Shown here one piece after another: positions 6,520-35,823 of a DNA stretch of 63,622 nt. Made by a program: the position numbers and the translations under genes. Source of the stretch: a virus; IMG/VR virus record IMGVR_UViG_3300045747_000073, positions 1 through 63,622 of that record; one strand, written 5' to 3'. The notes beneath the pieces were generated by a model. That model was not told the origin of the DNA and ran no database searches. It worked only from the letters and a program-made list of their open reading frames with translations. Position 1 is the first letter of the stretch. Each line of letters opens with the position of its first letter.

Positions 6520-7417
6520 ACACCACTCACACAAGCTAATTGTTGAACACCCTCAACCTGATCGGAGTATTCCTCGAAGTCATTCCAATCAATCCCGGCA
6601 GGAATCTTAGCAGCCATATCCTTGTACTCCTGTTCAGTGCATTCTTCGTAGGGTGCTTGTTGATATGTGCCACCATCGTCCGGCAGGAACGATACGCCAG
6701 TACACTCATCGAAGTGGTTATAAACCCATGACCCAACCTCCATCCATTCATTCTCCTTTATGGAGATAGTTACTGATGGATTATGGTCAGTGTACCATGT
6801 CTTGTACTTGAGCCATAGTTCTAAGTGTTGAATCGCCGTAAGATCCTTCTTAGTAAACCCGGCGCATTTCTGTGGAAACGAGAAAACCACAGTATCTTGA
6901 GGTTTCATAACGCAGTCTTCATGAGGGAATCCTTGCTCAATAAGGAAGGTAGTCATTGGATCCTTCTTATCCTGTCGAATACGACGAATGTAGAAGGGTG
7001 CATGCCCCGGGTGGATACCACTAGATGTCTGAGTAAGCTGGCTCACCGTGCCCTCAGGTTTGATCGTGGTGATTGCCTTTGACCGTGGGATGCCCAGGGT
7101 ATCAGCCCAGATATTGTTTGTCTCTGTGGCACAATCTGATAGCTTCTTGAGGATGTGCTCAAGAGAGATGATAGACTCACCACGGAGGATTGGGTTGTCA
7201 AGGATACCAGTCATGGATACACCCAACAAACGCTCCTCTTCAGTGTTCTGCTGCCAGATCTTACGCAGATACGGGAAGTCAGTGAGGGTGGCTTGCATGG
7301 TACCCATGATAGTAGCAATGCGTACTTTCTCCAGCAAGGTTTCGATGGTATCTTGTGGGGATACTACTACAGTAGATAGGTTACAAAATTGTTGTGGACG
7401 CAATAAAATCTCTCCAC
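6507..7417 (-). CDS. nrdJ: Class II ribonucleoside-triphosphate reductase, exon 2 (C-terminal)
   Basis: This is the second exon of the reductase; exon 1 is 8294-9263. Joining T at 8294 to GT at 7417 restores NPCGEILL and then QFCNLS, the active-site segment of adenosylcobalamin-dependent RTPR. Spliced, the gene has 627 codons (626 aa plus stop), in phase. The C-terminal end CVSGVCMI (Cys619 and Cys624) matches the shuttle cysteine pair of the class II enzyme. The enzyme makes dNTPs from NTPs for phage DNA synthesis. An internal ATG-like start in this exon has no ribosome binding site and lacks the catalytic cysteine, so independent translation would be inactive. Confidence 0.93.
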
Positions 7418-7513: not shown

Positions 7514-8140
7514 CTAGATCAGACTATCGCATGTAATATGTTTCCACGTTCTATTGTATCGAATATTGTTTATAACACAGTGTTTAACATCAAAGATATT
7601 GGCAATTTCTTTTGTAGTTTTATCGGTGATTAGCAAGCTTTTAATTTCCTTAACTTGCTTCTCATCCAGAATTGCTCTACCATTCTTTGATCCGGCTTGT
7701 ATACCTCTATAGATATCCGGTCGTTCTGAATGTATCTTCAATGCTCGTTTGCTACGGGCTTCTTTGGTGTCCTTCTTGCTTATGGCAAGTTTGGTTGCCT
7801 CAGAAGTTGCTTTCCTGTGCTTTTCTTTATTCTCGGGTATGTTGTACCAACTAGGTTCAACCCCTAACTCACCACCCATTTGAAGGTTTAACCCAATCAT
7901 TTGTGTGGGTCTATAGTAAGCCTCTGCCAAGAGAGCTTCCTGTAAACTTAGGCTTTGATCCATCATTTCTATTTCGATATCTGACCAAGCGGTTGACTTT
8001 AAGAAACATACCAGAGGTGTCTGGTGTTTGTTCCTTCTGTGCCCACGAATTCGCTCAGATAGGTCTTTAGTTATTCCAACATAGCCCTCTGACATAACGT
8101 CTGTGTGACCTTTATGCCTAATCCAATATACTGTGTACAT
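7514..8140 (-). CDS. Intron-encoded GIY-YIG homing endonuclease, 208 aa
   Basis: The N-terminal GIY-YIG domain shows YTVYWIRH...GYVGITKDLSERIRGH, with the catalytic Arg and downstream Glu (LLAEAYY). The C-terminal part (KQVKEIKSLL...TTKEIANIFDV) looks like a helix-turn-helix for target binding. It lies wholly inside the intron, so it probably spreads the intron into empty reductase genes. ATG 8140 is chosen because GAGAGGGG precedes it; a GTG at 8155 is also in frame. Promoter element E2 lies about 40 bases upstream. The N-terminal domain is similar in pattern to the protein at 56144. Confidence 0.9.
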   Translation of the reverse strand: MYTVYWIRHKGHTDVMSEGYVGITKDLSERIRGHRRNKHQTPLVCFLKSTAWSDIEIEMMDQSLSLQEALLAEAYYRPTQMIGLNLQMGGELGVEPSWYNIPENKEKHRKATSEATKLAISKKDTKEARSKRALKIHSERPDIYRGIQAGSKNGRAILDEKQVKEIKSLLITDKTTKEIANIFDVKHCVINNIRYNRTWKHITCDSLI

Positions 8141-8178
8141 AATTACCCCTCTCACTTAGTCGTTCACGGTGAATAACT

Positions 8179-9735: not shown

Positions 9736-11925
9736 TTAACAAAAGAAATACTGACTGTTTTGGACATCGTTTATATCCAGTGATCCGAGAACTGGTTGTG
9801 TTGCTGAGAAGCTAGGTTTATACTCCATCAAGTTATCTTCGAGTAGATCAAAGAAGTTTTCTACATCATACTGAGCTATGAAGGTCATCTTAGTGATGTC
9901 CTGCAATAGATCAACGTCAGACGCATGACAACTAAAGCTATCATGTACCGCAGCGAATGACCCATTGAATGCTACAATGGTGTTGGCCATGTGAGCAGCA
10001 TCATAACTATGTACTACATTCGGGCTGATCCCCGAGGCGAATGATCTCCGGCATGGGATCTTCTCTCCGGTAGTCTTACCGACTACATCTATCTTAACCA
10101 CATGCATGATCCTGCCTGTCTTACTCCCGGGTAAACCCTTAATGGTTCCCCTCTGCTTGTGCTCATGCTGAAGGTTTGCCTTGTATACGACCGGGAAACC
10201 GCTAGGTGTCTTCCAAGACAACTCATTAGAGCCATTAGCGAGTTCATGCTCAGCCATCTTCTGAAGGTACTTAGTAGTCTTCAGTGGTCCTTGGCATACC
10301 TCGTTGATTGAGTCTATGAGCTTACCAGCCAACATCTCGCAGTCATCTTCGCTGATGTTGTACTTGTGGTTGAACCCTAGCATATGCAGATCATCGTACA
10401 TGTTAGAAGCTATCCGCTTCTTACCTGCTGAGTACGCACGAGTCATAGAGCCCCTCTTAGCAATGCCCTTGCGGATATGCTTCATGGGTATACCACGACT
10501 AGCGAACCAGTCAGGGAGTTTACCTACTAGGTTCTTAGCCACGGCTACGTAGAAGTCCTTCTGTACAGCTTCATTCGTGAGTGACACTAACGATCCTGCT
10601 GCTTTGTCCTTGGACATTGCTGCAAGGTGTTGCCAGCCATTGTTCGAACCATCGATACCCACGGGTAGCCCTGAGTAGTAAGGCTTGCCTAATGCTTGTG
10701 CTATGGTGTAGTTAAAGAGTTCTACACAACAAGATAAGAACCCATACGGCTTCTCTGCTTTAGGTGTCAACTGCTCAGCCTTACCCAACTTAGCAATCAT
10801 GCTATAGTTCTCGATAGTCCACTGAAAACGATCCTCCATCGTCATCTTGTCTACTGATATGGTGTCCAGACCTTCTTCTTCCAAGTACTTCCGGTAGTCG
10901 GTTGTCGTCCAGCTAGGGATCTCATTGATATCATATGATTGATTAAATGAGGTTGCAGCCTTGATGCATATCCACCGATAGCCACTCTTAGTAACCTCCT
11001 TTGTATCCTCAAACAAGAAAAGACTTCTCGCAAGGTCTCCCCCTTGATAAGACAAGAATGATTCAGTGTAGTACATACGCCCACGGTAGTCACAAGATAC
11101 CTCCTGATAGAATGTTTTATCCAGCAGCATTACTGCCTTCTTAATTACTTGCTCGTACTCGTACTTCTTGGAGATCAGTCGTTGTACTCGTGTGTCCCTG
11201 TGTCCAAGGAAGGGGGTGCCTTCGTAAGTGTATTCGCCCCTTGGGAGATCGCCAATTGGATACGAGCCGATAACGCCATCTCCATCAACAAGCTCGATAG
11301 TTGATTTTGGGCTTTCTGCAATTGCTGTGGCGAGTACTGCACCATTGATTTTCCATCCTTGCTGGCGTAGAACTTCCAAGGCTTTAACGAATCGCTCATT
11401 CAAACACTCCTTAAATTTATCTTCGTCAGTCCATCCCTTGATGAATGACTGGTGGGTTAGCGGGCTTTTAAGCCCCGATATCCTAGGTAACGGGACAAGG
11501 GATGTGCCAACGAGTACTGGCTTGATACTGTTAATGTCACCCTTGAGTAGCAGCATGTATGGCGCTTTGAAACCATCGTATGCCCTCTCGATATCTATCA
11601 AGTCATCCTGAAGAAAGGTTTCAATCAGGATGTCACCTAACGCAAGTATATCCTTAATATATGGGTCAATAAGCCGCAGCCTACTAGCCAGTTGAGTACC
11701 TATCATGGTGCTCACAAAGGTTAGTTTAACTGCGGCCATATGGGTTGCACTCTTATTACGGATACAGTACCGTGTTAATGAGTCCCATGCTTCCTCTACA
11801 ATTTCCTCCAATTCGAATTCCCATAATGGGTATTGTGCCAGAAGTAAACAACCTTGGTTGTACATTTTTTCTGACTCCGGTATTACCTTATTGACTCGTT
11901 GAGCCAAATAAACCGATGGATCCAT
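9736..11925 (-). CDS. T7-type single-subunit DNA-dependent RNA polymerase, 729 aa
   Basis: All hallmark motifs are present: DYRGR (279-283); motif A DGSNNGWQH with catalytic D425; motif B KRGSMTRAY with K490 and Y498; motif C HDSF with D662. The protein is shorter than T7 RNAP (883 aa), mainly in the N-terminal domain, as in many marine and environmental podophages. It should transcribe middle and late genes from phage promoters; the TTAGCYGGTACCTAATAGG elements are the best candidates. The start ATG at 11925 follows AAGGAATCTA. It lies next to the primase-helicase, within the replication block. Confidence 0.97.
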   Translation of the reverse strand: MDPSVYLAQRVNKVIPESEKMYNQGCLLLAQYPLWEFELEEIVEEAWDSLTRYCIRNKSATHMAAVKLTFVSTMIGTQLASRLRLIDPYIKDILALGDILIETFLQDDLIDIERAYDGFKAPYMLLLKGDINSIKPVLVGTSLVPLPRISGLKSPLTHQSFIKGWTDEDKFKECLNERFVKALEVLRQQGWKINGAVLATAIAESPKSTIELVDGDGVIGSYPIGDLPRGEYTYEGTPFLGHRDTRVQRLISKKYEYEQVIKKAVMLLDKTFYQEVSCDYRGRMYYTESFLSYQGGDLARSLFLFEDTKEVTKSGYRWICIKAATSFNQSYDINEIPSWTTTDYRKYLEEEGLDTISVDKMTMEDRFQWTIENYSMIAKLGKAEQLTPKAEKPYGFLSCCVELFNYTIAQALGKPYYSGLPVGIDGSNNGWQHLAAMSKDKAAGSLVSLTNEAVQKDFYVAVAKNLVGKLPDWFASRGIPMKHIRKGIAKRGSMTRAYSAGKKRIASNMYDDLHMLGFNHKYNISEDDCEMLAGKLIDSINEVCQGPLKTTKYLQKMAEHELANGSNELSWKTPSGFPVVYKANLQHEHKQRGTIKGLPGSKTGRIMHVVKIDVVGKTTGEKIPCRRSFASGISPNVVHSYDAAHMANTIVAFNGSFAAVHDSFSCHASDVDLLQDITKMTFIAQYDVENFFDLLEDNLMEYKPSFSATQPVLGSLDINDVQNSQYFFC

Positions 11926-13691: not shown

Positions 13692-13885
13692 TTCCCATGC
13701 TCCCGAATATAAGTGGCGGCTATTGCTAGCTGCTTGTCAGTAAAACCGATACCGTACAGATAACCCATAAGGAATATCTGGCTTTTACCGGGATCCCCTT
13801 CATGGCGATTTAGATAGCCCATGATATCGTAGAACGTGTGCTCTACGTCTTCCCTCTTATAGAGGTCTTCAACAAGCTTCTTCAT
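13688..13885 (-). CDS. Hypothetical protein, 65 aa
   Basis: Its start overlaps the upstream endonuclease stop by ATGA. The mixed helical sequence (GKSQIFLMGYLYGIGF) shows no recognised domain. It belongs to the coupled replication operon. Confidence 0.78.
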   Translation of the reverse strand: MKKLVEDLYKREDVEHTFYDIMGYLNRHEGDPGKSQIFLMGYLYGIGFTDKQLAIAATYIREHGN

Positions 13886-14310
13886 TCTTTAGGCTCGATA
13901 AATCGTACAGCAGCTACATTAGCATTCCAGAACATACGCTCCCCATTAGGTAAGAGTTGACGTGACAAGGCATCATACTTCCAGATGTACTTCGCTTCTA
14001 GGTAGGATGTCATTGATCGTGACTTGGTCCATGCTAGGATACGGAATACAAAGGAATCAACACCTTCCTTGCGGATGAACTGCTTGAGTTCCTTACAAGA
14101 GCTAGTGTACTTCTCCCAGTCACTCTCACGATAGATCTTCTTCTTACGTTTCTTACCTTCCTCGGTTATGCTTGTGTAAGTAGTAAGCTGCTTTCTTCCC
14201 ACGTATCTCCTCCCGGAGTCGATGTGTGTGATGAGGTAGATGAAAGCAAAATGATCTGGCTCTCGGGGTGTGTCACTGATCCAGTGTCCGTACTTGAAGT
14301 AGTCTTCCAT
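13882..14310 (-). CDS. SegE-type GIY-YIG endonuclease-like protein, 142 aa
   Basis: FAFIYLITHIDSGRRYVGRKQL carries the GIY and Y-x-G parts, followed by basic residues, a Trp-Tyr segment (DWEKYTSSCKELK) and EAKYIW with the likely catalytic Glu. This layout resembles phage SegE-like endonucleases. The first 145 bases overlap the exonuclease gene in another frame, which is unusual in this tightly packed operon. The start ATG 14310 has only a weak AAAGAAAG site upstream. Confidence 0.82.
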   Translation of the reverse strand: MEDYFKYGHWISDTPREPDHFAFIYLITHIDSGRRYVGRKQLTTYTSITEEGKKRKKKIYRESDWEKYTSSCKELKQFIRKEGVDSFVFRILAWTKSRSMTSYLEAKYIWKYDALSRQLLPNGERMFWNANVAAVRFIEPKE

Positions 14311-22515: not shown

Positions 22516-23094
22516 TTATCGTGTGAAAGTGTGGTTTCTATTGTGCTTACGTCGCCCTGACAAGCAGTTGTATATGATCTCAGGGCTAAACCCTAAATCT
22601 CGCATTTCTTTTTGGTTGTGCAAAATTATCTGTTCGCCCGTGTCCCTATTGGTAGCTGTTACAGGCCCTTTGTATGTTGGGTTGTTTTCTCCGGAAGTAT
22701 CTTTCTTTCTCCTAGCTTCAGACATTTTCTGTCTGTGCTCGTCTGAGAACTGCCTTCCTTTCTGGCTTTCAGATATTCTTTTGCATTGCTCTGGTGTCCT
22801 TTTAGACCCAAGGTTCCAGTTGCTGCCTAGTTGCCCGTCACCACCTTCGGTTAGGTTGGCTAACTCGTAGCCTTCTTGCTTAAAGAATGAGATCATTCCC
22901 ATTTCGTACTTTAATGCATCTTCATGTGTCTCAAAGTGTTTTAGGTAGTCACTAACAAACCCGTGCTTGGCTACTATTCTTTTCCAGAACCTGTTTCTGC
23001 CAGAAGACACATTCTTTCGTCCATCTTTTCCTTTACCTATGTAGAAGGGCCGAAGCTCGTCTTTTGTAAAGTGTATGTATACATAGTGTTTCAT
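22516..23094 (-). CDS. GIY-YIG endonuclease with NUMOD3-like repeats, 192 aa
   Basis: HYVYIHFTKDELRPFYIGKGKDGR is the catalytic start, followed by VSSGRNRFWKRIVAKHG and a Glu in EDALKYEMGM. The C-terminal half has NUMOD3-type helices (TPEQCKRISESQKGRQ, SDEHRQKMSEARR) and a NUMOD1-like segment with Asn-Arg repeats (IIYNCLSGRRKHN). It is flanked by promoter E4 and a terminator, so it looks like a self-contained inserted cassette. It resembles the gene at 26038. Confidence 0.92.
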   Translation of the reverse strand: MKHYVYIHFTKDELRPFYIGKGKDGRKNVSSGRNRFWKRIVAKHGFVSDYLKHFETHEDALKYEMGMISFFKQEGYELANLTEGGDGQLGSNWNLGSKRTPEQCKRISESQKGRQFSDEHRQKMSEARRKKDTSGENNPTYKGPVTATNRDTGEQIILHNQKEMRDLGFSPEIIYNCLSGRRKHNRNHTFTR

Positions 23095-25661: not shown

Positions 25662-26036
25662 ATGTCAGAAGTTAGCAAAGCGGATAAATATCCACAGCTT
25701 ATTCCTTTCAACAGTGAGGCTGCACGGGCTGCACAGCGTAAATCAACAGAACAAAAGTGGTGCCAACGGGCTGTTGCAGAAAACTACAAGCTTAATGCTC
25801 GTACTTTCATCAAGATCATGGCTGATTTGCCTGACCTTGGCCCCTTGGAAATTATGAAATTAGCCATACACGACGCACTAGATAAGAGCGATTTTGAGGC
25901 TGCTGCCAAGTATGCGTCTATGCTTGCCGAATATCAAATGCCCAAACTTGCTCGAATTGAATCTACGGTGACCACTCGCACGTCAGACCTCTCTGATGAG
26001 GAGCTTAAGGCTATCATTGACAAGGAAGGATTATAA
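25662..26036 (+). CDS. Terminase small subunit-like protein, 124 aa
   Basis: The C-terminal half (DALDKSDFEAAAKYASMLAEYQ, then KLARIEST and LSDEELKAII) matches the end of many small terminase subunits. The N-terminus (EAARAAQRKSTEQK) is helical and polar. AAGGATAAATT precedes the ATG. The gene is on the plus strand, 6 kb from the large terminase and within an opposed operon, which is unusual. It would bind the packaging site. An alternative is a small DNA-binding protein of another role. Confidence 0.6.
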   Translation: MSEVSKADKYPQLIPFNSEAARAAQRKSTEQKWCQRAVAENYKLNARTFIKIMADLPDLGPLEIMKLAIHDALDKSDFEAAAKYASMLAEYQMPKLARIESTVTTRTSDLSDEELKAIIDKEGL

Positions 26037-26037
26037 T

Positions 26038-26664
26038 ATGTTTTTCGTATATCTCCATAAGAAAGGAGATACGGGCGAACCTTTCTATGTTGGTAAAGGT
26101 ACAGGTAAGAGGATTTATTTTCACTCTGGCCGAAACCAATGGTGGCATAATATTGTTGCTAAACATGGTATAGCCTACGAGTTCTTAGGTTACTTCGAAC
26201 TTGAGGTGGACGCTTTCGCGTATGAGAAGGACAGGATTGCCTTCTATCGTTCAGAGGGCTACACTTTATGTAACCTTACTGATGGTGGTGAGGGTGCATC
26301 TGGTCGTGTTCTTTCGGAAGAATCTCGTGCCAAGATGATTGCTTCTGCCAAGGCTAAACCAGCACAATCACAAGAGGCTAGAACTAAACGTAGCCAATCT
26401 ATGTCTGGTCGTGTTCGTAGCCCTGAGCACTGTGCTGCTCTTAGTGAAGTTCAGAAAGGTAAACCACATAGCTCTGAGCATACAGCAAAGGTTGCTCTCG
26501 CTCGTCTTGGTATGAAGCTTTCTGATGAAACTAAAGCCCGTATGTCTGCCTCTAGCAAGACCCGTCCTCCTATCTCCGAGGAAACAAGGCAGAGGCTTCG
26601 TGATGTTGCTGTTCTTCGTGAACAAGCTAAGAAGCAGGCACAAGCCTTACTCACTCTCCTATAG
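26038..26664 (+). CDS. GIY-YIG endonuclease with NUMOD3-like repeats, 208 aa
   Basis: FFVYLHKKGDTGEPFYVGKGTGKR is the catalytic start; HSGRNQWWHNIVAKHG is nearly the same as in the gene at 22516. At least four NUMOD3-type helices follow (SEESRAKMIASAK, SPEHCAALSEVQKG, SSEHTAKVALARLG, SDETKARMSASSK). ATG 26038 follows AAGGAAGG. The stop codon lies in the reverse complement of promoter E6. Confidence 0.92.
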   Translation: MFFVYLHKKGDTGEPFYVGKGTGKRIYFHSGRNQWWHNIVAKHGIAYEFLGYFELEVDAFAYEKDRIAFYRSEGYTLCNLTDGGEGASGRVLSEESRAKMIASAKAKPAQSQEARTKRSQSMSGRVRSPEHCAALSEVQKGKPHSSEHTAKVALARLGMKLSDETKARMSASSKTRPPISEETRQRLRDVAVLREQAKKQAQALLTLL

Positions 26665-27623: not shown

Positions 27624-27950
27624 TTATACTCCTACACATGGATACATTTTAGTCAAGATGAATGCAACAGAGTCCCTAGCATCTAACTTCAATGCAGATT
27701 CACCGTTAGCGCCCTTAGAGACACTAGTGATGACCTCCCCTATCCTTGTGAATAAAAACTTGCCTGAGACCCCTTCTGGTACACAGATGCGTGTGTCTGA
27801 GGCTACACCTAGGATGAACCCTAGAGCGTATGCTTGGGCGGCATCGTTACCGTTGATACGATCGTTTAAAGTCTTTGTATCGATGAATCCTGCCTGTGCT
27901 GTTAGTGCAACAAAGGACAAGAGTAATGTAGCTATGCTGTATTTTTTCAT
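27624..27950 (-). CDS. Secreted Rap1a/Tai-like protein, 108 aa
   Basis: A clear signal peptide (KKYSIATLLLSFVALTAQA, cleavage near residue 20) precedes a domain with AAQAYALGFILGVASDTRICVPEG and a C-terminal DARDSVAFILTKMYPC. This is the pattern of the Rap1a/Tai family, periplasmic immunity proteins that block type VI secretion amidases, with two conserved cysteines that could form a disulfide. A phage copy could shield the infected cell or modulate lysis; that is inference. It overlaps the upstream gene by ATGA. A B-type mini-hairpin lies in its signal-peptide codons. Confidence 0.75.
   Translation of the reverse strand: MKKYSIATLLLSFVALTAQAGFIDTKTLNDRINGNDAAQAYALGFILGVASDTRICVPEGVSGKFLFTRIGEVITSVSKGANGESALKLDARDSVAFILTKMYPCVGV
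27925..27943. repeat. Mini-hairpin B6 (single)
   Basis: AATGTAGC-TAT-GCTGTATT: an 8-bp stem with two G-T wobbles around the AGC-TAT-GCT core, in the start region of the Rap1a-like gene. It is a weaker, unpaired copy of the B hairpin. Confidence 0.45.
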
Positions 27951-28177
27951 TCTGGATCCTTCACTTCTATTACATCAAATACTGCTATACAACCTTCCAT
28001 AGGTTTAATACCATCGTTGTAGAGTGATTCTCCAATGTTATCAAAGAACCTGCGATTGTGACCAATACCAGTAATATGATCACATACAGCAAGAAGTAAC
28101 GATGCTTCTTCTAGAGTGAGGCTGATGTTGATGGATGTAACTTGAGGAACCATTTTGGTGGTTGTTGTGTAGATCAT
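27947..28177 (-). CDS. Hypothetical protein, 76 aa
   Basis: ATG 28177 overlaps the previous stop by ATGA, with AGGAG nine bases upstream. INISLTLEEASLLLAVCDHI resembles the matching part of the next gene upstream, so the two may be diverged paralogues. Confidence 0.75.
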   Translation of the reverse strand: MIYTTTTKMVPQVTSINISLTLEEASLLLAVCDHITGIGHNRRFFDNIGESLYNDGIKPMEGCIAVFDVIEVKDPE

Positions 28178-28356
28178 TCCGAAATATCTCCTGTTAGTTC
28201 TATCTTGGATACAGGTGCACCTTGTACACATAGCGATGAATACAAGTCACCAGCTAACTTAGCGCTAATACGCGAGCACCAAGCCCGTATCTCTGAGGCT
28301 TCTTCCTCAGTGGGCCTTAGGGTGAAGGTCTTGGTTGTTGTTGGGGTAAGGTTCAT
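28174..28356 (-). CDS. Hypothetical protein, 60 aa
   Basis: Starts one base after the previous stop. KTFTLRPTEEEASEIRAWCSRI shares the Leu...EEAS...Cys pattern with the 76-aa neighbour. No known domain. Confidence 0.7.
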   Translation of the reverse strand: MNLTPTTTKTFTLRPTEEEASEIRAWCSRISAKLAGDLYSSLCVQGAPVSKIELTGDISE

Positions 28357-28357
28357 A

Positions 28358-28672
28358 CTAGCTTGCCATCTCCCTAAGTTCTCTGATTGATAATGTACTA
28401 ACAAATAACAAGAAGAAGATCCTTGTATCTGTCATCTCACCCGGTTTACCAAAGCCATCATTGTAAGCGGCATCGCTGCTGGATAGTTTTCGTGTGATTT
28501 GATAGGCGTTATATGCGCCAAGCTTTTCCGCTGTGTAGCAGATACCATTGGCATAGCTACCGTAGTTGGCCTCTAGTGTTCCTCTTTCGAGGATCTGTCT
28601 ACATGCTGTTCGGTATGCAGTCATGTCGTTGATTGAGAATTTAGGACGTAGTCCAATAGCTATGCTATTCAT
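28358..28672 (-). CDS. Hypothetical protein, 104 aa
   Basis: Helical protein (AYRTACRQILERGTLEANYG) with a hydrophobic segment near the end (RIFFLLFVSTLSI). Its first ten codons contain the doublet hairpin D1. It is coupled to the 21-aa peptide by ATGA. Confidence 0.74.
   Translation of the reverse strand: MNSIAIGLRPKFSINDMTAYRTACRQILERGTLEANYGSYANGICYTAEKLGAYNAYQITRKLSSSDAAYNDGFGKPGEMTDTRIFFLLFVSTLSIRELREMAS
28644..28669. repeat. Doublet mini-hairpin D1
   Basis: Hairpin A GGAC-GTA-GTCC (28644-28654), then hairpin B AATAGC-TAT-GCTATT (28655-28669). Both have three-base loops. It lies just after a start codon on the minus strand, within coding sequence. Confidence 0.75.
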
Positions 28673-28734
28673 GCTTTCACCCTTTTCATGATTAGTGCTA
28701 ATATAACAAAGATTAAGAATAGTATCAGTTCCAT
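28669..28734 (-). CDS. Micro membrane protein, 21 aa
   Basis: A single hydrophobic helix (LILFLIFVILALIM) with a KRVKA tail. GTGGAGTAACCT precedes the ATG and the stop overlaps the next start by ATGA. The size suggests a regulator or helper of a membrane process, but nothing more can be said. Confidence 0.68.
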   Translation of the reverse strand: MELILFLIFVILALIMKRVKA

Positions 28735-28765
28735 AGGTTACTCCACAATTTGTTTCGTAACTGCG

Positions 28766-29071
28766 TTACTCAACTGAATAAAACCAAGTGTTTGCATCAT
28801 TACCACCAGCAGCAACAAAGATTACTGGCTTACCTGACTCGTATGCCTTCTGAAGGTCTTTGGTGAGCTTGATGAGGGCTTTCTCGTTAGTAATACGAGA
28901 ATAGAGGCACTTACGAGTGCGTGAGTCAGAACAATCAACAAAGATTGATGTCGTAGCTTCATCAACACGAGGCACTGAGGTGATCACTACGGGGAGACTT
29001 TTACGGTCTGGTTGAGTGATGTTGTTGGTTACGAAGGAGACAGAAACAGATGTGAATTTAGGAGTAAACAT
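28766..29071 (-). CDS. Hypothetical protein, 101 aa
   Basis: First gene left of the 29.1-29.6 kb gap. Beta-rich start (FTSVSVSFVTNN), then a helical, basic half (KALIKLTKDLQKAYESGK). No domain recognised. Upstream TATATTAT on its strand might be a -10 region, but no good -35 is visible. Confidence 0.72.
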   Translation of the reverse strand: MFTPKFTSVSVSFVTNNITQPDRKSLPVVITSVPRVDEATTSIFVDCSDSRTRKCLYSRITNEKALIKLTKDLQKAYESGKPVIFVAAGGNDANTWFYSVE

Positions 29072-29109
29072 AATATATGAGCTTAAGTTGGTTGTAGTGT
29101 ATAGGGACC

Positions 29110-29130
29110 GTAGTCGGTACCTATTGAGAG
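29110..29130 (+). promoter_or_regulatory. Candidate phage-RNAP promoter, element E7
   Basis: GTAGTCGGTACCTATTGAGA, a more divergent copy, 41 bases upstream of E8 and in the same direction. Its left side (GGACCGTAGTC) resembles the A mini-hairpin. Confidence 0.5.
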
Positions 29131-29150
29131 TAAATTTAACTGTGCTAGCT

Positions 29151-29175
29151 AGTTAGCTGGTACCTAATAGGAAGG
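29151..29175 (+). promoter_or_regulatory. Candidate phage-RNAP promoter, element E8
   Basis: AGTTAGCTGGTACCTAATAG then GAAGG. It points right, but the genes to the right are on the opposite strand until 31620. It may prime replication, produce antisense RNA over the early genes, or both. Confidence 0.6.
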
Positions 29176-29277
29176 TTGATTAGTTACAGTTTAGCGGGGG
29201 ACTGTAACAGCATTTAAATATGCATTAATCGGCCATCTTAGGGGTCTGCCCAGCCCCGCCCCTAGTATGTTAAAGTA

Positions 29278-29302
29278 GAACGTAGTTCGACAGCTATGCT
29301 GT
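29278..29302. repeat. Doublet mini-hairpin D2
   Basis: Hairpin A GAAC-GTA-GTTC (29278-29288), then hairpin B ACAGC-TAT-GCTGT (29290-29302). Intergenic. Confidence 0.78.
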
Positions 29303-29653
29303 AATATTGAAGAGTATATTAGTAAGTACCTCTTAAACGTTAAGTTGTAGTTAGTGAATCCTTAAAGGAAAAGAATAAAGGTTACTTGGTAGTATACTTG
29401 AAAGTATATTATAGGAGAGGAAGGATTTTTTGATATAACACTTCTTGATACACTTTGTAATGCCTCCTCTGTAGTGATCCTATGAGTAGGGAGCAACGGC
29501 ACGTTGTGACCGCTGGTAAGTGGTGTTTGTCAGAATGATGTACAAATTGTTCGAAAGGTGATCCAAAATGAACAATTTGAACGTTTGACACTCATCACAC
29601 ACAAAATCACTCACAAAATCACCATAAAAATTAGCCCCTGCTTGTGTAGTGTA

Positions 29654-30265
29654 CTACCTAGTCCTCCCACAAGCCATATCTAAATACTTAATAGTACCCT
29701 CAGCAAATCTCTCTGCTGCTTCCTTGTTAAGATGTACTCCATCGGTAGTATCTGATAGACCTTTGTATAATATATTCTGTCTCCAATTAGCATCAATGAT
29801 ATCACGGTTAACAGAGGTATATGTGTGGATATATGTATCTAATATTGCTGCATTATCTATTTGTGTCTGATTAAGTATGCTATTAGGCGCGTTAGTTAGT
29901 GGTACTATTCCTGTTACCACAATGGTTGCTCCTTTAATGCTCTCGATAGTGCTCTTGAATAGTGCCTCTACCTCTGGCTCTGGTGTATCACCCACGTCAT
30001 TACCGCCAAGCTCTATTAGTACTACTTGAGTGTGGAACTCTTTTGTTATCTCTCTGAGCTTCATGCCACCAACTGCTAAGTCAGTGATGATGAAGTTAGG
30101 TCGTCTTGCTCTGATGTAGTCTGAGAAGCCTACTAGGGTGTTCTTAGCGATGATACTGTCGCCAGTCATTGTAATGGTGCATGGTGTTACTGTAGTAGGA
30201 GCTATGCTCCCGCCCCCGCCACACCCGGCTAGTGCTACCGCTAGTAGTGTTAGTAGTGCTTTCAT
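29654..30265 (-). CDS. SGNH/GDSL hydrolase lipoprotein, 203 aa
   Basis: The N-terminus has a lipobox (LAGC, Cys15) after a hydrophobic stretch, then a glycine linker. The catalytic blocks are TGDSI (Ser nucleophile), a Gly in block II (AVGGM), GGND in block III and DGVHLN with the Asp-His pair. Such enzymes remove acyl or other ester groups. As an outer- or inner-membrane lipoprotein it could alter surface glycans during infection or exclude other phages; that role is inference. It lies at the early end of the minus block. A B-type mini-hairpin sits in codons 19-23. Confidence 0.85.
   Translation of the reverse strand: MKALLTLLAVALAGCGGGGSIAPTTVTPCTITMTGDSIIAKNTLVGFSDYIRARRPNFIITDLAVGGMKLREITKEFHTQVVLIELGGNDVGDTPEPEVEALFKSTIESIKGATIVVTGIVPLTNAPNSILNQTQIDNAAILDTYIHTYTSVNRDIIDANWRQNILYKGLSDTTDGVHLNKEAAERFAEGTIKYLDMACGRTR
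30198..30210. repeat. Mini-hairpin B5 (single) in lipoprotein gene
   Basis: GGAGC-TAT-GCTCC, a perfect 5-bp stem with the AGC-TAT-GCT core, in frame as Ser-Ile-Ala on the minus strand. Confidence 0.55.
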
Positions 30266-30266
30266 G

Positions 30267-30506
30267 TTAGTTCACCTCTGTGGTCATCACTTCTTCACTG
30301 CTATCGTATATGCCAGTCACCTCGACTATGGCACCCGGCAGGTCAGTGATGAACATGCAGTTGGCTAGTACCTTAGCAGTGGTTGCTGTGAGGTAGTTGT
30401 GTCCACCGATAGTGGTGATAGTGCAACCGAACTCAGCGGCTGCTTCGTGGATCTCTTCGTAGTTGATGTTGAGGCCGTCGATAGTGGTAAGTGCAATGTA
30501 TTTCAT
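30267..30506 (-). CDS. Hypothetical protein, 79 aa
   Basis: AAGGATTTATC precedes the ATG. Alternating helix and strand (EEIHEAAAEFGCTITTIGGH, LANCMFITDL). Early gene of unknown function. It shares the TTATCATG start context with its neighbours. Confidence 0.78.
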   Translation of the reverse strand: MKYIALTTIDGLNINYEEIHEAAAEFGCTITTIGGHNYLTATTAKVLANCMFITDLPGAIVEVTGIYDSSEEVMTTEVN

Positions 30507-30575
30507 GATAAATCCTTGTAGAGTGTATTAGCCAAATGCACTGTACTTACCCGGTGCAGGTCTCTCTGTGCTTAA

Positions 30576-30601
30576 CGGACGTAGTCCGCGAGCTATGCTC
30601 G
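30576..30601. repeat. Doublet mini-hairpin D3
   Basis: Hairpin A CGGAC-GTA-GTCCG (30576-30588) is followed directly by hairpin B CGAGC-TAT-GCTCG (30589-30601). It lies in a 120-bp gap between early genes. Confidence 0.8.
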
Positions 30602-30626
30602 TTGTCCAGAGAATGGACAGAGTAAC

Positions 30627-30755
30627 TTAATACCCGTGGTGACTGATGATCACTTCAAAGTCAGTGTTCGGGAAGAATGCCAGCAGGTATGCTTCGTTCT
30701 CCGACAGTTCAATCATGAAGTGGTGGTCTTGTTTGGTGAAGATGAAGTATGACAT
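30627..30755 (-). CDS. Small protein, 42 aa
   Basis: Starts MSYFIFTKQDHHF and ends NTDFEVIISHHGY. GGGCTTATC precedes the ATG, the same start context as its neighbours. No domain recognised. Confidence 0.7.
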   Translation of the reverse strand: MSYFIFTKQDHHFMIELSENEAYLLAFFPNTDFEVIISHHGY

Positions 30756-30763
30756 GATAAGCC

Positions 30764-30925
30764 CTATTGGTTGAGTGAATGATTGACAATGAACATACTA
30801 ACCACATGGACGATGCCAGTGATTAGAGCGAGTGCCATGATGATACTATTGCTAGTGTCTATGGCATAGAAGATCGCTGATCCCCAGATAGCGTACAGTA
30901 CGATGTCAGCGAGTATGTTGCCCAT
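30764..30925 (-). CDS. Small membrane protein, 53 aa
   Basis: Two hydrophobic helices (ILADIVLYAIWGSAIFYAI and IIMALALITGIVHVVSMFIV) joined by a short polar turn. ATG 30925 follows GAGGTTATC; an upstream in-frame start would run through unrelated T-rich sequence. Confidence 0.78.
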   Translation of the reverse strand: MGNILADIVLYAIWGSAIFYAIDTSNSIIMALALITGIVHVVSMFIVNHSLNQ

Positions 30926-30932
30926 GATAACC

Positions 30933-31286
30933 TCAGAAGGGCAACGACAGGTCAACGTTCTCAGTACGCATAGCAAGGTAGTCGTCAGCAGTGATGACAC
31001 CAACGAACCATTGCTCAGCACTCCAGTCACGACCATTGTAACGAGCAGCAGCAAATGCACACGGTTGGTTGACTACCCCTCGTGCACTGTTTGCAATAGC
31101 ATCTAGAGTGAGACTAGGCATAACCCTCACAGCCATTGCAGTCTTGAGAACACACTGACGGAATGAGCCATCAGCAAGCTTAACAACCACACGATCACTG
31201 AGCACCTTGACTTCTGTTACGATGCCAAGGCTCCAGTTAGCGCCCGACAGGTTGTTGAGAGCGATTGATTTACGAGATGCAGCCAT
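30933..31286 (-). CDS. First early gene, hypothetical protein, 117 aa
   Basis: ATG 31286 follows TGGAGGCTATC, a strong site. A small beta domain (WSLGIVTEVKVLSDRVVVKL) is followed by a helical segment. The open frame continues 58 codons upstream through the T-less tract, giving a hydrophobic Leu/Val/Cys-rich extension that I regard as an artefact of base composition. No known family. Confidence 0.78.
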   Translation of the reverse strand: MAASRKSIALNNLSGANWSLGIVTEVKVLSDRVVVKLADGSFRQCVLKTAMAVRVMPSLTLDAIANSARGVVNQPCAFAAARYNGRDWSAEQWFVGVITADDYLAMRTENVDLSLPF

Positions 31287-31294
31287 GATAGCCT

Positions 31295-31477
31295 CCAAAA
31301 GAAACAGGGCAAGAGCGCCCAACCAACACAACAGAGCAACAACCCACAACGCGAGCACAAGGCAAGCCAAGGACGCACGGGAAGAGCCCACAAAGGAAAC
31401 AAGGGGGTCACACAAAGGAACAAGGCGAACCCACAACACACACAAGAAACCTTTTGACACGCAAAGAGAGACACCGA
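31295..31477. other. Extreme strand-composition tract (almost no T on the plus strand)
   Basis: There are only five T in 183 bases: one at 31408 and four at 31452-31455. The first 113 bases have none. The sequence is A/C/G-rich with short CACAA and CAAGG repeats. It separates the two divergent gene blocks. On the minus strand it would be an RNA leader nearly free of A; on the plus strand, RNA nearly free of U. Confidence 0.9.
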
Positions 31478-31500
31478 TTAGCCGGTACCTAATAGAGATA
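31476..31500 (+). promoter_or_regulatory. Candidate phage-RNAP promoter, element E9 (late block)
   Basis: GATTAGCCGGTACCTAATAG then AGATA, pointing to the large terminase 120 bases downstream. Just after it, TTTAAG/CTTAAA and ACTC-AAAA-GAGT (31502-31531) form a 5' stem-loop that could protect the transcript. Confidence 0.65.
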
Positions 31501-31619
31501 TTTTAAGGGCACTCAAAAGAGTATTCTTAAACTATCATTATTCCAAAAAAATTACTAATAATTTCTAGCCAAGTATACCCATACAGAGTATAGGGATATT
31601 CATTAAGGAACAACAAACA

Positions 31620-33359
31620 ATGGCATTCACCGACGTCATCCGCAAGGGCCACCATGCAACGCAGCCCCTCCCAGAGATCCCAGAGGATCTCCTCCAATAC
31701 ATCCCCCAGTCTGCTGCACAGAAACGTGCGAATGGTCTAAAGCTAGCTGCACTAAGAGAACTCAAGAAAAGGGAGAAGCTAAATGAATACAGGGGGAACT
31801 TCGAAGTATTCTGCAATGAACAGGTTAAAGTACTACCCAAGGATGCCTCTATTGGGTTCATTCCATTACATCTTAATGAAGCCCAACAAATCGTCAACGC
31901 CAAGATTGAAGAGCAGCTTAAGGCAACTGGTAAAGTCAGGGCGATCATCCTTAAGGCTAGGCAGATGGGTCTCTCGACATACACAGCTTCGAGGGTATTC
32001 TGGAAGGCTTATCTTAACCCTTACCATAAGTCGGTTATTCTAGCTCATGATGCAGCTACGGCTGATGCATTGTTCACCATGAGCAAGAACATTATTAGCC
32101 GGATGACTGATGAGTACAGACCAGAGTTTAAAAAGAGTAATGCGAAGGAGATTCAGTTCTTGCATAACGACTCAGGGTATCGGCTATATACCGCTGGATC
32201 AGGTGAAGCGGGACGAGGATCAACCCCTACTGTTTGTCACATGTCTGAGGTAGCCTTTTGGCAGAATGATGAGTCACTACTCGCTGGGCTATTCCAAGGG
32301 ATTTCCCAAGCTGACGGTACTGAAGTGATCCTTGAGAGCACTGCTAACGGTATTGGTAATGCCTTTCATAGGCTCTGGAATGGTGCTGTGGAAGGTACTA
32401 ACGAGTATGTAGCTATCTTTGTTCCTTGGTTCTTGATGTCAGAGTATCGTAGGGAACACCCTAAGGACATGGAGCTATTGCCTGAAGAGGAATCCCTTGT
32501 TCTCAAGTTCTCACTAACCAAGGATCAGTTATACTGGCGTAGGTTGAAGATAGCAGAGTCAGGGGAACTCAAGTTTAAGCAAGAGTATCCATCAACTCCT
32601 GAAGAAGCATTTCTTGTTTCTGGTGCTAATGTATTTAACGTGGAGAAGCTAAATGCCCTCATACCTCAACCAGTACTGGCTAAGCGGGAGTTTGATTTTG
32701 ATTCTTGTATGTTTGATGATGTCAGACATGGTAGTCTGGAGATTTTTAAGTACCCGACTTTTGAAGATGCTTTTGCTGTTGGTGCTGATGTTTCTCTGGG
32801 TGTTGGGAGAGATTTTTCTACGGCTGTAGTAATGAACAAGAGAAAGGAAGTATGTGCAATCTATCACAATAACACTATTGATCCTTCTCAATTTGGAGAT
32901 CTACTGTTCTATCTTGGCAGATATTATAACAATGCACTTCTAGCAGTAGAATCAAACAGCATGGGTATTGCCACCTTGAATAGGCTAGCCCAGATGAACT
33001 ACATCAATATGTACTTCCAAACTAAGATGGCTAATGTCTCTAAGGAGGATGGTACTAGAATGGGTTGGAGAACTACCTCATCCAGTAAGCCAGCTATCAT
33101 CGGGTTCCTTAAGTCTGCCATTGAGCAGGAAGAGATCTGGATCCCTTCTAGGATGATGATTCAGGAACTTATGAATTTTGTTGTTAGTGACACTGGTAAG
33201 ACTGGTGGGTCCACTGGTAACAACGATGACTCTGTAATAGCACTAGCTATTGTCTTGGAAGTAATCCGGACTCATGGAGACAGACTAACAAACAATCGGG
33301 TACCGTTCACTCAACAGAGTAAGACGTACCAATCTCAAGGAGATACAAATTGGCTATAG
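31620..33359 (+). CDS. terL: Terminase large subunit, 579 aa
   Basis: The ATPase part has a Walker A-like KARQMGLST, a Walker B region (TVCHMSEVAF) and a coupling motif near ILESTANG. The nuclease part keeps acidic residues in GADVSLGVGRDFS, LAVESNSMG and GNNDDSVIAL. It cuts and pumps DNA into the prohead through the portal. It is the first gene of the late block; AAGGAACAACAAACA precedes the start. Confidence 0.96.
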   Translation: MAFTDVIRKGHHATQPLPEIPEDLLQYIPQSAAQKRANGLKLAALRELKKREKLNEYRGNFEVFCNEQVKVLPKDASIGFIPLHLNEAQQIVNAKIEEQLKATGKVRAIILKARQMGLSTYTASRVFWKAYLNPYHKSVILAHDAATADALFTMSKNIISRMTDEYRPEFKKSNAKEIQFLHNDSGYRLYTAGSGEAGRGSTPTVCHMSEVAFWQNDESLLAGLFQGISQADGTEVILESTANGIGNAFHRLWNGAVEGTNEYVAIFVPWFLMSEYRREHPKDMELLPEEESLVLKFSLTKDQLYWRRLKIAESGELKFKQEYPSTPEEAFLVSGANVFNVEKLNALIPQPVLAKREFDFDSCMFDDVRHGSLEIFKYPTFEDAFAVGADVSLGVGRDFSTAVVMNKRKEVCAIYHNNTIDPSQFGDLLFYLGRYYNNALLAVESNSMGIATLNRLAQMNYINMYFQTKMANVSKEDGTRMGWRTTSSSKPAIIGFLKSAIEQEEIWIPSRMMIQELMNFVVSDTGKTGGSTGNNDDSVIALAIVLEVIRTHGDRLTNNRVPFTQQSKTYQSQGDTNWL

Positions 33360-33490
33360 ATCTTAAACTAACAGCACAGGAACGAAAGAGTATTCAATCG
33401 TTTATGAAGCCTCAAACACAGGCTAAGCTTGTTAACCCCAAGGAAAAGGTTGGCGATAAAATCCCTAAAGACTTTATGCCTAAACGCTGA
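33350..33490 (+). CDS. Small basic protein, 46 aa (TTG start)
   Basis: TTG at 33350 follows AAGGAGATACAAA inside the terminase end. The protein is Lys-rich (QERKSIQSFMKPQTQAK). A strong ribosome site and a clean fit before the promoter element support it. No known family. Confidence 0.72.
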   Translation: MAIDLKLTAQERKSIQSFMKPQTQAKLVNPKEKVGDKIPKDFMPKR

Positions 33491-33494
33491 AATA

Positions 33495-33552
33495 GTTAGC
33501 CGGTACTGAGGGCTACGCCCGAAGCCAGCGTAGCTGGTACCTAATAGAAGAG
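33495..33552 (+). promoter_or_regulatory. Candidate promoter E10 interrupted by doublet hairpin D4
   Basis: A partial element copy (GTTAGCCGGTACT, 33495-33507) is followed by two hairpins, GGGC-TAC-GCCC (33510-33520) and CCAGC-GTA-GCTGG (33525-33537), then the rest of an element (GTAGCTGGTACCTAATAG). The arrangement looks like a hairpin pair inserted into a promoter with duplication of TAGCYGGTACY. The portal gene follows at 33592. Confidence 0.62.
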
Positions 33553-33591: not shown

Positions 33592-35823
33592 ATGAGTAAT
33601 ACAGCAAATTATAAAGAAAAGGTTGATGACTCAGAACTAAAACAGATGATCGAACAAGGGGTGATGAACTCCGTTGGTGACTTCTTGAACAGTTCTGACA
33701 TGGCCCGAGAAAGACAGAAAGCCACGCTAGAGTACGGGATGATGCCACAGATGCATCTATCACCCCAAGGTGTATCGCAGATCGTATCCTCAGATACCGT
33801 AGAAGTTATTGAAGGATACGTAGCGATTCTGTCTGAACTCTTGTTTAGTAACAACAAACTTGCTAGGTTTATTCCAGCAGGTACACAACCTACTGACTTC
33901 CATAAGGCAAAAGTAGCAAGTGACCTAGTAAACTACACCATTTTCAAGCAAAATAATGGGTGGGAGTTGCTAAATACATGGGTAAAAGCTGCACTACTTT
34001 GGAAGAATTCAGTAGTTCGGTGGGAATATATCGAGGATTTTGAGTATTCCTTTGAAGAATACGACACAATCTCACAAGAAAACCTAGATTTACTGCTGGC
34101 TGAACCCGACACCGAGATTGTCGGTAAGCTTCAGTACGATCAAGAGTTAAAGTCTAATCCGGAGACGGGTCAGTCTGAGTATGTAATGGTCTATAAGGAC
34201 GTGCGACTAAAAATTAAGCACAACAAGACCCGAATTCAGATCAAGAACGTTCATCCAGAGTCTTTCCGTATCACACGGGATGCTCACGGCTTCAATGATG
34301 CTGCTTTTGTTGGTATCCAGATAGATCTTACAAGGTCAGAGATACGAAAACAATGGCCAGACATTGCAGATACGATTAACTGGGACGAGATCGGTGATGG
34401 TTCCTACGATTGGGCCACTAAATACACCGAGGAACAGTCAGTTCGTAAGCGGTTAGTAGGTGAAGAGTACTGGTTGGGTGGAAACTCGCGTGAGTTGTAC
34501 CCAACTGAGGCAAATAGGCAGGTCACAGTCATTGAATGTTGGCTTAGAGTGGATCGGGATGGTGACGGTATCGCAGAATTGAAACATTTCATCTTAGCGG
34601 GTGGAACAATTCTCTTGGAGGAGGATGCAGATGAGATTCCGTTGGCTTCCCTCTGCCCATTCGACGTACCCCACGAGTTCTTTGGTCTATCTGCTGCTGA
34701 TATGGTGCGTCCTACCACTATGGCTACTACCGCTATCCTGCGCGGTTTTGTTGAGAACGTTTATCTCACAAATTACTCCCCGAAGCTAGCAGATCCTAAC
34801 GTAGTTGACTTCTCTGCCCTGCAGAATATGAAGCCTAAGCAGATTATTGCGACTAATGGTAACCCCAACAGTGCAGTTGCTGCTATGACCCCTGATACCA
34901 TCAGCCAAGGTACAGTTCCTTTGTTGGAAATGCTACAAACTCACAAGGAACAAGCTACCGGGCTGTCTAAAGCTGCACAAGGCTTGAATGACACCCTCTT
35001 TGTCTCAGGCAACTCAGACGAGAAGATGGCCCGTGCACAATCTGCAGCACAAGTGCGTATCCAGCACATGGCTCGTAGGTTTGTTGAGACAGGTATTCAT
35101 CGTTTGTGTAATGGGGTGTATAACCTCATCAAGACTAAGATGAAAGGTTCAGAAGTCAAGTATACCACGCAGAATGATGTGTTCAAAGCTGTGGATCCTG
35201 CTACCTTACCCAACAACCTTGTTATGTACATCGATGCTGACGTAGGTGAGAACGGTAACTCATCGATTGTCAAGAAAATGACTATTGTGGGACAACAACT
35301 AATCCCGGCGCTGCAACAAGCAGGCGCTGGTTCGGCGGTTAACCCAGAGGCTGCAGTACGTATTGCATGTAAGACATTAGAAGCAATGGATCTTGATCCT
35401 CTTGACTTCCTTGTTGACTACACTGCACCAGACTTCAAACAGAAGGCTGAAGAATCTCGTAAAGCAGAAGAACAAGCACAACAGAAGAAACAACAACTGG
35501 AAGAACAACTGAAGCAACTGGATATCGCTCAGAGACAAGCAACCCTTGACCTGACTAACGTACAATCGAAAAACGCGCTTCAGGATAACACAAAGCAACT
35601 AATGGTTGCGCTCGATAAGAGCCAACAAGAGTATCTTAAGCTGTACATCAGTGCAGCTAAGGAAGGTGTTGAACTTCCACTAGTCAAAGGAATTGACGAA
35701 CTACTTAAGATCGCCAATGACTTTATTAAGAGTAACGGGGGAGACAACGCTAACGCCCCTCAGGGCAGTGCGCCCCCACCCACACTACCCGGGCCACCTA
35801 TGGCACCGGATTTACCAATGTAA
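33592..35823 (+). CDS. Portal protein, 743 aa
   Basis: Size, place after the terminase and sequence style (GVSQIVSSDTVEVIEGYVAIL, the crown-like WKNSVVRWEY, and a Gln-rich coiled-coil C-terminus AQQKKQQLEEQLKQL) fit podovirus portal proteins. It forms the 12-fold ring for packaging and ejection. The C-terminus is Pro-rich. Confidence 0.92.
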   Translation: MSNTANYKEKVDDSELKQMIEQGVMNSVGDFLNSSDMARERQKATLEYGMMPQMHLSPQGVSQIVSSDTVEVIEGYVAILSELLFSNNKLARFIPAGTQPTDFHKAKVASDLVNYTIFKQNNGWELLNTWVKAALLWKNSVVRWEYIEDFEYSFEEYDTISQENLDLLLAEPDTEIVGKLQYDQELKSNPETGQSEYVMVYKDVRLKIKHNKTRIQIKNVHPESFRITRDAHGFNDAAFVGIQIDLTRSEIRKQWPDIADTINWDEIGDGSYDWATKYTEEQSVRKRLVGEEYWLGGNSRELYPTEANRQVTVIECWLRVDRDGDGIAELKHFILAGGTILLEEDADEIPLASLCPFDVPHEFFGLSAADMVRPTTMATTAILRGFVENVYLTNYSPKLADPNVVDFSALQNMKPKQIIATNGNPNSAVAAMTPDTISQGTVPLLEMLQTHKEQATGLSKAAQGLNDTLFVSGNSDEKMARAQSAAQVRIQHMARRFVETGIHRLCNGVYNLIKTKMKGSEVKYTTQNDVFKAVDPATLPNNLVMYIDADVGENGNSSIVKKMTIVGQQLIPALQQAGAGSAVNPEAAVRIACKTLEAMDLDPLDFLVDYTAPDFKQKAEESRKAEEQAQQKKQQLEEQLKQLDIAQRQATLDLTNVQSKNALQDNTKQLMVALDKSQQEYLKLYISAAKEGVELPLVKGIDELLKIANDFIKSNGGDNANAPQGSAPPPTLPGPPMAPDLPM

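Follow-up and report, generated by a model that had tools for sequence, protein, structure and literature searches.

Analysis of a 63,622-nucleotide (nt) stretch of viral DNA (positions 1 to 63,622 of IMG/VR record IMGVR_UViG_3300045747_000073; here, the window) revealed three copies of a 25- to 26-nt double hairpin, at positions 28644, 29278, and 30576. Each consists of two adjacent hairpins with three-base loops, and all three contain the exact core ACGTAGT-N5-AGCTATGCT. Because 16/16 core positions are identical and the core-to-core spacing is constant although arm lengths differ, the three copies share ancestry; because all arm pairs have been kept while three pairs changed on both sides, the copies have been maintained as a structure. 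We place about even confidence in a further proposal, that they represent one double-hairpin element whose copies are dispersed in the early region, the part of the phage genome with leftward small genes, termed early by analogy with T7-like phages.

Three copies of a twin hairpin with a fixed core

At site 1 (28644 to 28669), a type A hairpin, GGAC(GTA)GTCC (28644 to 28654), is followed directly by a type B hairpin, AATAGC(TAT)GCTATT (28655 to 28669). Site 2 (29278 to 29302) combines GAAC(GTA)GTTC (29278 to 29288) with ACAGC(TAT)GCTGT (29290 to 29302) across a 1-nt spacer, and site 3 (30576 to 30601) joins CGGAC(GTA)GTCCG (30576 to 30588) to CGAGC(TAT)GCTCG (30589 to 30601). A covariance model built from these sites (model R2) detected exactly three copies in the 63.6-kb genome and no further one, with scores of 43.3 bits (E = 1.3e-07), 41.7 bits (E = 2.9e-07), and 41.9 bits (E = 2.7e-07) for sites 1 to 3, respectively.

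The arms differ among these sites yet always pair: in the three-row alignment, 27/27 pair cells are standard, and three pairs have changed on both sides. When the partners were slid by 1 to 3 columns as a control, only 19 to 41% of cells paired, with 0 double changes. A preliminary description, made from the letters of this DNA, had claimed four places with covarying arms and constant loops, selected or copied as a unit. For the three copies, both claims are supported by the identical 16-nt core, the fixed spacing, and the compensatory arms; the fourth place, at 33510, does not belong with them.

The same description reported adjacent hairpin pairs at all four places, and perfect triloops are indeed present at 28644 to 28669, 29278 to 29302, 30576 to 30601, and 33510 to 33537. 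Adjacent hairpin pairs closed by C thus number 4 in the genome, against a mean of 0.10 per genome and a maximum of 2 in 200 dinucleotide shuffles, so shuffled genomes do not give as many. The repeated core, observed in three copies, arose in none of 100 shuffled genomes (0/100). Genome-wide, 67 triloop hairpins of 5 bp were found versus ~62 expected by simple probability; given this lack of overall excess, what is unusual is limited to the occurrence in pairs, the common cores, and the clustering. The word AGCTATGCT itself occurs seven times, always on the plus strand, and 5/7 occurrences fall within 27930 to 30599.

The three copies occupy different settings. Read on the minus strand, site 1 supplies codons 2 to 10 of a small open reading frame (ORF; 28358 to 28672), directly after the start codon; this ORF has a plausible ribosome site by inspection, and a search for its relatives found none. 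Site 2 is intergenic, ~200 nt from the next gene downstream (28766 to 29071). Site 3 lies on the minus strand within loop 3 of a conserved pseudoknot in the 5' leader of gene 30267 to 30506, a location missed by the preliminary description. Folding energies are similar on both strands at the sites, and energy alone is not decisive between strands; wobble pairs at 27930 (see below) favor the plus strand, and the leader context favors the minus strand. A suggested likeness to the stable C(GNA)G mini-hairpins holds for type A on the plus strand only; type B reads C(TAT)G, and neither type conforms on the minus strand. We rejected intrinsic terminators (a GC-rich hairpin and then a T run), since the T run is missing and none was listed at sites 1 to 4. 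An Rfam search of the window gave no match, ribozymes included, with noise only at permissive thresholds. The idea that all coding copies of the B hairpin read Ser-Ile-Ala was also dropped, this being partly explained by a stop codon in another frame.

Site 4 (33510 to 33537) falls outside the core family. It comprises GGGC(TAC)GCCC (33510 to 33520) and CCAGC(GTA)GCTGG (33525 to 33537) and overlaps a promoter at 33531 to 33548. Both hairpins are perfect but lack the core and the order of sites 1 to 3; with loops of TAC and then GTA, each is readable as either type. Model R2 returned only noise here (9.2 bits, E = 7.4, compared with 41.7 to 43.3 bits for the three members), and minus-strand RNA prefers one longer hairpin. 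The two single B-type copies in the preliminary description are uncertain members, both scoring near noise (E of about 3). One, GGAGC(TAT)GCTCC at 30198 to 30210 inside a GDSL lipoprotein gene, is a perfect 5-bp hairpin (10.7 bits, E = 3.3). The other, placed at 27925, has its B core at 27930 to 27938 in a signal-peptide coding stretch (27922 to 27942 scored; 10.7 bits, E = 3.2), and its arms pair only through two G-T wobbles, on the plus strand. Chance is the best account of the resemblance at site 4 and possibly of both single copies.

The pseudoknot leader RNA at site 3

The RNA that hosts site 3 is an H-type pseudoknot leader on the minus strand (30536 to 30623), whose 3' half scores 23.8 bits (E = 1.4e-05). 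Its helix P1 is formed by TCCA/TGGA (30617 to 30614 with 30608 to 30605), and the loop TTCTC (30613 to 30609) pairs with GAGAG (30566 to 30562) to make the pseudoknot helix. The 3' part consists of ACC and then a hairpin, TGCAC...GTGCA, with a GGGTAAGTA loop, and the start codon of gene 30267 to 30506 follows 29 nt downstream. Comparison of the leaders of relatives yielded a consensus of a 4-bp hairpin with a 5-base loop, usually UUCUC, pairing with a downstream GAGAG, followed by ACC and a hairpin with a GGUAWGUW-type loop; the distance from leader end to start codon is 5 to 40 nt in the copies checked. The window copy has all the defining features.

In the loci examined, 42 copies besides that of the window were parsed, nearly all from this phage group. 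A leader model (model R1) was applied to 74 loci, related or retrieved, and matched 56 times at E<=0.05; this total is not an independent count because some loci were fetched with the motif pattern and the weakest matches are due to chance. Covariation supports all three helices: 97.3% of cells are paired versus 82.4% with shuffled partners, and eight pairs are double-changed, with strong covariation in the flanking helices and some in the pseudoknot helix. Within the 5-bp pseudoknot helix, two pairs are invariant and one has changed on both sides; rows outside the alignment hold a second double change (CUCUG with CAGAG). A search of the leader against Rfam 15 gave no match, ribozymes included, and only noise at permissive thresholds. 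This pseudoknot leader RNA, carried by a large phage group, is apparently undescribed.

Loop 3, which runs from the first hairpin to GAGAG, measures 37 nt in the window versus 1 to 8 nt in the other 42 parsed copies, and it contains the twin hairpin, TTAAGCACA, and a few linking bases. This difference in length identifies the twin hairpin as an added module at site 3. The only longer loop-3 parses (39 to 41 nt) come from contigs L211, L229, L230, and L239, where tandem copies also parse with short loops.

Tandem leader copies occur in some contigs (L211, L229, L230, L239, and L244), and in dozens of contigs from related phages (L133, L145, L176, L184, L185, L200, and others) the leader precedes small early genes. 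In Roseobacter phage CRP-7, the nearest isolate, the early region carries a type II hammerhead ribozyme (L256, 570 to 633; Rfam RF02276, 50.1 bits), which suggests that early transcripts in this phage group undergo RNA processing.

Occurrence in other DNA and genome setting

The covariance search proposed in the preliminary description was built on three sites, and it found no element in related phages. Relatives are without the sequence altogether, so the case of relatives keeping the sequence without the pairing was not seen. In the parts of CRP-7 that were fetched, model R2 found nothing significant and model R1 found nothing; the region of the sites is covered by no close relative, L172 ending at about window position 26652. 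A fixed-gap core pattern gave one chance match without extended arms in viral contigs and, in genome contigs, mainly a repeated 23S-like word without hairpin pairs. Among the matches listed for variable-gap core searches, all apart from L298 were coding or chance matches.

L298 is an unrelated phage contig with a RusA-like resolvase and distant portal and head proteins. Its sequence GATGAC(GTA)GTCATC-GT-GTGCAGC(TAT)GCTGCAC, within a hairpin-rich noncoding stretch, has the same cores in the same order, and each hairpin extends past its core by four more pairs. The arms are longer than and different from those of the window copies, and model R2, trained on three shorter copies, did not detect it. 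By our after-the-fact estimate, the extra pairs have a chance probability of ~4^-8 per match, or ~0.002 over the roughly 130 matches listed. Only 14 distinct C-closed adjacent pairs were present in the 3.1 Mb examined, including loci fetched for containing cores. A Clostridia metagenome-assembled genome (L032) carries a double mini-hairpin twice (873 to 913 and 7058 to 7098), TGTTGC(GAA)GCAACA beside ACCACACGC(nnn)GCGTGTGGT; the second hairpin has the loop CTC in one of the two copies and GAA in its counterpart, and the whole resembles a double-hairpin repeat in a bacterial genome.

The virus record is ~63.5 kb long, with a terminal overlap of 167 bases at 99% identity. Small genes run leftward on the minus strand from ~31.3 kb, and the terminase gene (31620 to 33359), the portal gene (33592 to 35823), and the structural genes run rightward. 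A single-subunit (T7-type) RNA polymerase of 729 amino acids (aa), encoded on the minus strand (9736 to 11925), is the likely reader of a linear phage-type promoter, TAGYYGGTACCTAATAGR, which occurs in 12 copies versus 0.40 expected. Two of these promoters, at 29111 to 29128 (3 mismatches) and 29154 to 29171 (exact), lie on the plus strand and run rightward past sites 2 and 3; two others on the same strand are found 5' of the terminase gene (31479 to 31496) and between terminase and portal, the latter being the one that overlaps site 4. The promoter and structural genes are common to many uncultured contigs. Identities to CRP-7 are 50.6% for portal, 53.5% for terminase, and 31.7% for RNA polymerase. 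The label freshwater for this phage is an impression. The early region also encodes, on the minus strand, a GDSL-type lipase/acylhydrolase with a lipoprotein signal (29654 to 30265), for which no homologues were found among the related contigs searched. Four GIY-YIG or NUMOD3 endonuclease genes (7514 to 8155, 13882 to 14310, 22516 to 23094, and 25996 to 26664) are likely homing endonucleases.

Two observations concern the promoters of other phages. In L001-type phages (L001, 6772 to 6819 and 12371; L003, 3763), the promoters sit in an inverted-repeat loop (TTCTATT...AATAGAA) with their left half partly duplicated, a layout similar to that of window site 4. Between promoter and portal, L167, L138, L005, L011, L143, L161, L151, and others have another conserved stretch that appears to be structured, CCCTTGTGTC...GGTAACTC...GTAGTTAC; it is missing from the window, where site 4 occupies that place, and the L167 copy had no credible Rfam match.

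Origin of the twin hairpin and comparison with known systems

On the reading of a dispersed element, the module added at site 3 would be one of its copies, set into loop 3 of a leader RNA that belongs to the 5' untranslated region of early gene 30267 to 30506. Judging from the pattern of substitutions, frozen loops with symmetric stem drift would be expected for a folded strand and not for a double-stranded protein site. The element may act or spread as a folded strand, most likely in the form of RNA, within early transcripts that run leftward. The stems would serve only to hold up the two conserved triloops, in which case any sequence-specific partner would read the loops and inner pairs. In line with a proposal made for the double-hairpin elements of fungal mitochondria, copies could arise by short-range duplication or by insertion into spots that tolerate a compact insert, such as a pseudoknot loop, an intergenic gap, or the beginning of a small ORF.

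Several observations weigh against dispersal. There are three clear copies only, in one orientation and within 2 kb, so that leader duplication could account for them with no need of mobility. Sites 1 to 3 show no visible target-site duplication, and an empty-site comparison is possible at site 3 only, since the relatives examined are without the element. The twin hairpin was absent from terminase relatives, promoter-sharing loci, 84 related loci, and 20 virus records searched whole, and L298 is a single match obtained after a widened search, among the matches listed. The phage genome has neither an HUH (Y1) transposase nor a tyrosine recombinase. Moreover, diverged arms with identical cores are no less expected of a site bound by a protein than of a selfish repeat.

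The strongest alternative is that the hairpins are RNA operators. Here, leftward early mRNAs would be recognized at the two triloops by an RNA-binding protein or a nuclease, of phage or host origin, that controls translation or decay of the adjacent early genes, the sites being nonmobile and kept or created in place by selection. The fixed core sequence and spacing, the compensated variation of the stems, and the shared orientation are all consistent with this account, as is the location of every copy among leftward early genes, with site 1 right after a start codon and site 3 in a leader so close to one. However, the element is absent from every relative examined, including those with the same two conserved neighbor genes; site 2 is ~200 nt from the next gene, and no candidate protein was identified. 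We consider operators possible but favor the dispersed double-hairpin element. Alternatively, in this lineage the pseudoknot leader may have the twin hairpin as a peripheral domain, and the copies may have spread by leader duplication; site 2 would then be what remains of a decayed leader, and site 1 would be a fragment. Relatives carry multiple leaders, and their homologue of gene 28766 to 29071, the gene downstream of site 2, has a leader directly upstream; by eye, a hairpin with a pyrimidine loop, AATAT(ACTCTTCA)ATATT, adjoins site 2 at the expected place of P1. That hairpin is weak and was noticed afterwards, model R1 detects no leader at sites 1 or 2, and no relative's leader has a long loop 3, leaving this explanation unlikely.

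Two further explanations have little to recommend them. The promoter of the N4 virion RNA polymerase is a small stem with a three-base loop, and single-stranded DNA hairpin promoters of this kind, which the C(GNA)G remark in the preliminary description brings to mind, would account for small stems, 3-nt loops, and the C(GTA)G of type A on the plus strand. Type B, however, is not C(GNA)G, and the reading fails given the linear promoter set with its T7-type polymerase and the lack of a giant virion polymerase, the largest ORF being 1244 aa with no Pfam match; we regard it as highly improbable. Equally improbable is that common words merely happened to form hairpins. The lack of an overall excess of triloop hairpins and the noise-level scores of site 4 and of both single B-type copies agree with chance, but three copies of a 16-nt gapped core with complementary arms were reached in no shuffle. 

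The dispersed element can also be cast more broadly and more doubtfully, with somewhat less confidence than we give to operators: the window and L298 may hold members of a phage family of very small double-hairpin elements, common to unrelated phages, with fixed triloops and freely drifting stems. The loops of structured RNAs would be their insertion sites, and a factor recognizing their own loops alone would let them act or spread, either as folded RNA or as single-stranded DNA; the host RNA at site 3 would be the apparently undescribed leader.

Organelles and bacterial chromosomes are already known to carry very small repeats defined by structure. If a compact phage genome holds one as well, it would be a small and tractable setting in which to study how these elements copy themselves and why conservation falls on the loops rather than the stems. 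The analysis also exposed a pseudoknot leader RNA, without Rfam match, before early genes across dozens of phage contigs, and whether this leader has a regulatory, processing, or ribozyme role can be tested directly. Like the hammerhead of CRP-7, the leader is a structured RNA between early genes; unlike it, neither the leader nor the window has a match to an Rfam ribozyme.

Among bacterial systems, integron attC sites were rejected, as a PF00589 integrase/tyrosine recombinase is absent from the genome (controls were positive), although the host may encode an integrase. REP/RAYT systems are also dispersed small palindromes containing a GTAG word. The GTAG tag of REP is located at the foot of the stem; in all three phage copies, GTAG instead spans the loop and the 3' closing base. 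PMC3733652 places the REP tag at one end of the element. The Y1 transposase (PF01797) is absent from the phage genome (5/14 control genomes were positive), although the host may encode one. With both the enzyme and the stem-foot tag missing in this genome, we set the REP/RAYT reading aside.

The closest parallels come from mitochondria, where double-hairpin elements, located in rRNA genes and intergenic regions, consist of tandem hairpins that are potentially mobile (PMC10085805) and, in fungal genes, remain in the transcript (PMC2800124). The phage element resembles those of Allomyces and Schizosaccharomyces in consisting of two adjacent short hairpins repeated as one unit, in its dispersal in intergenic and structured-RNA positions, and in apparently being tolerated in transcripts (PMC2800124, PMC10085805). 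The phage copies number three only, each of 25 to 26 nt, and the likeness is one of behavior only. Several mitochondrial sets are near-identical in sequence, whereas the phage stems have diverged around fixed loops and inner pairs. Sponge mitochondria likewise contain small repeated hairpins, often in tandem, but there the stems are conserved more than the loops, which vary (PMC2800124); the phage element shows the opposite, conserving its loops while its stems change.

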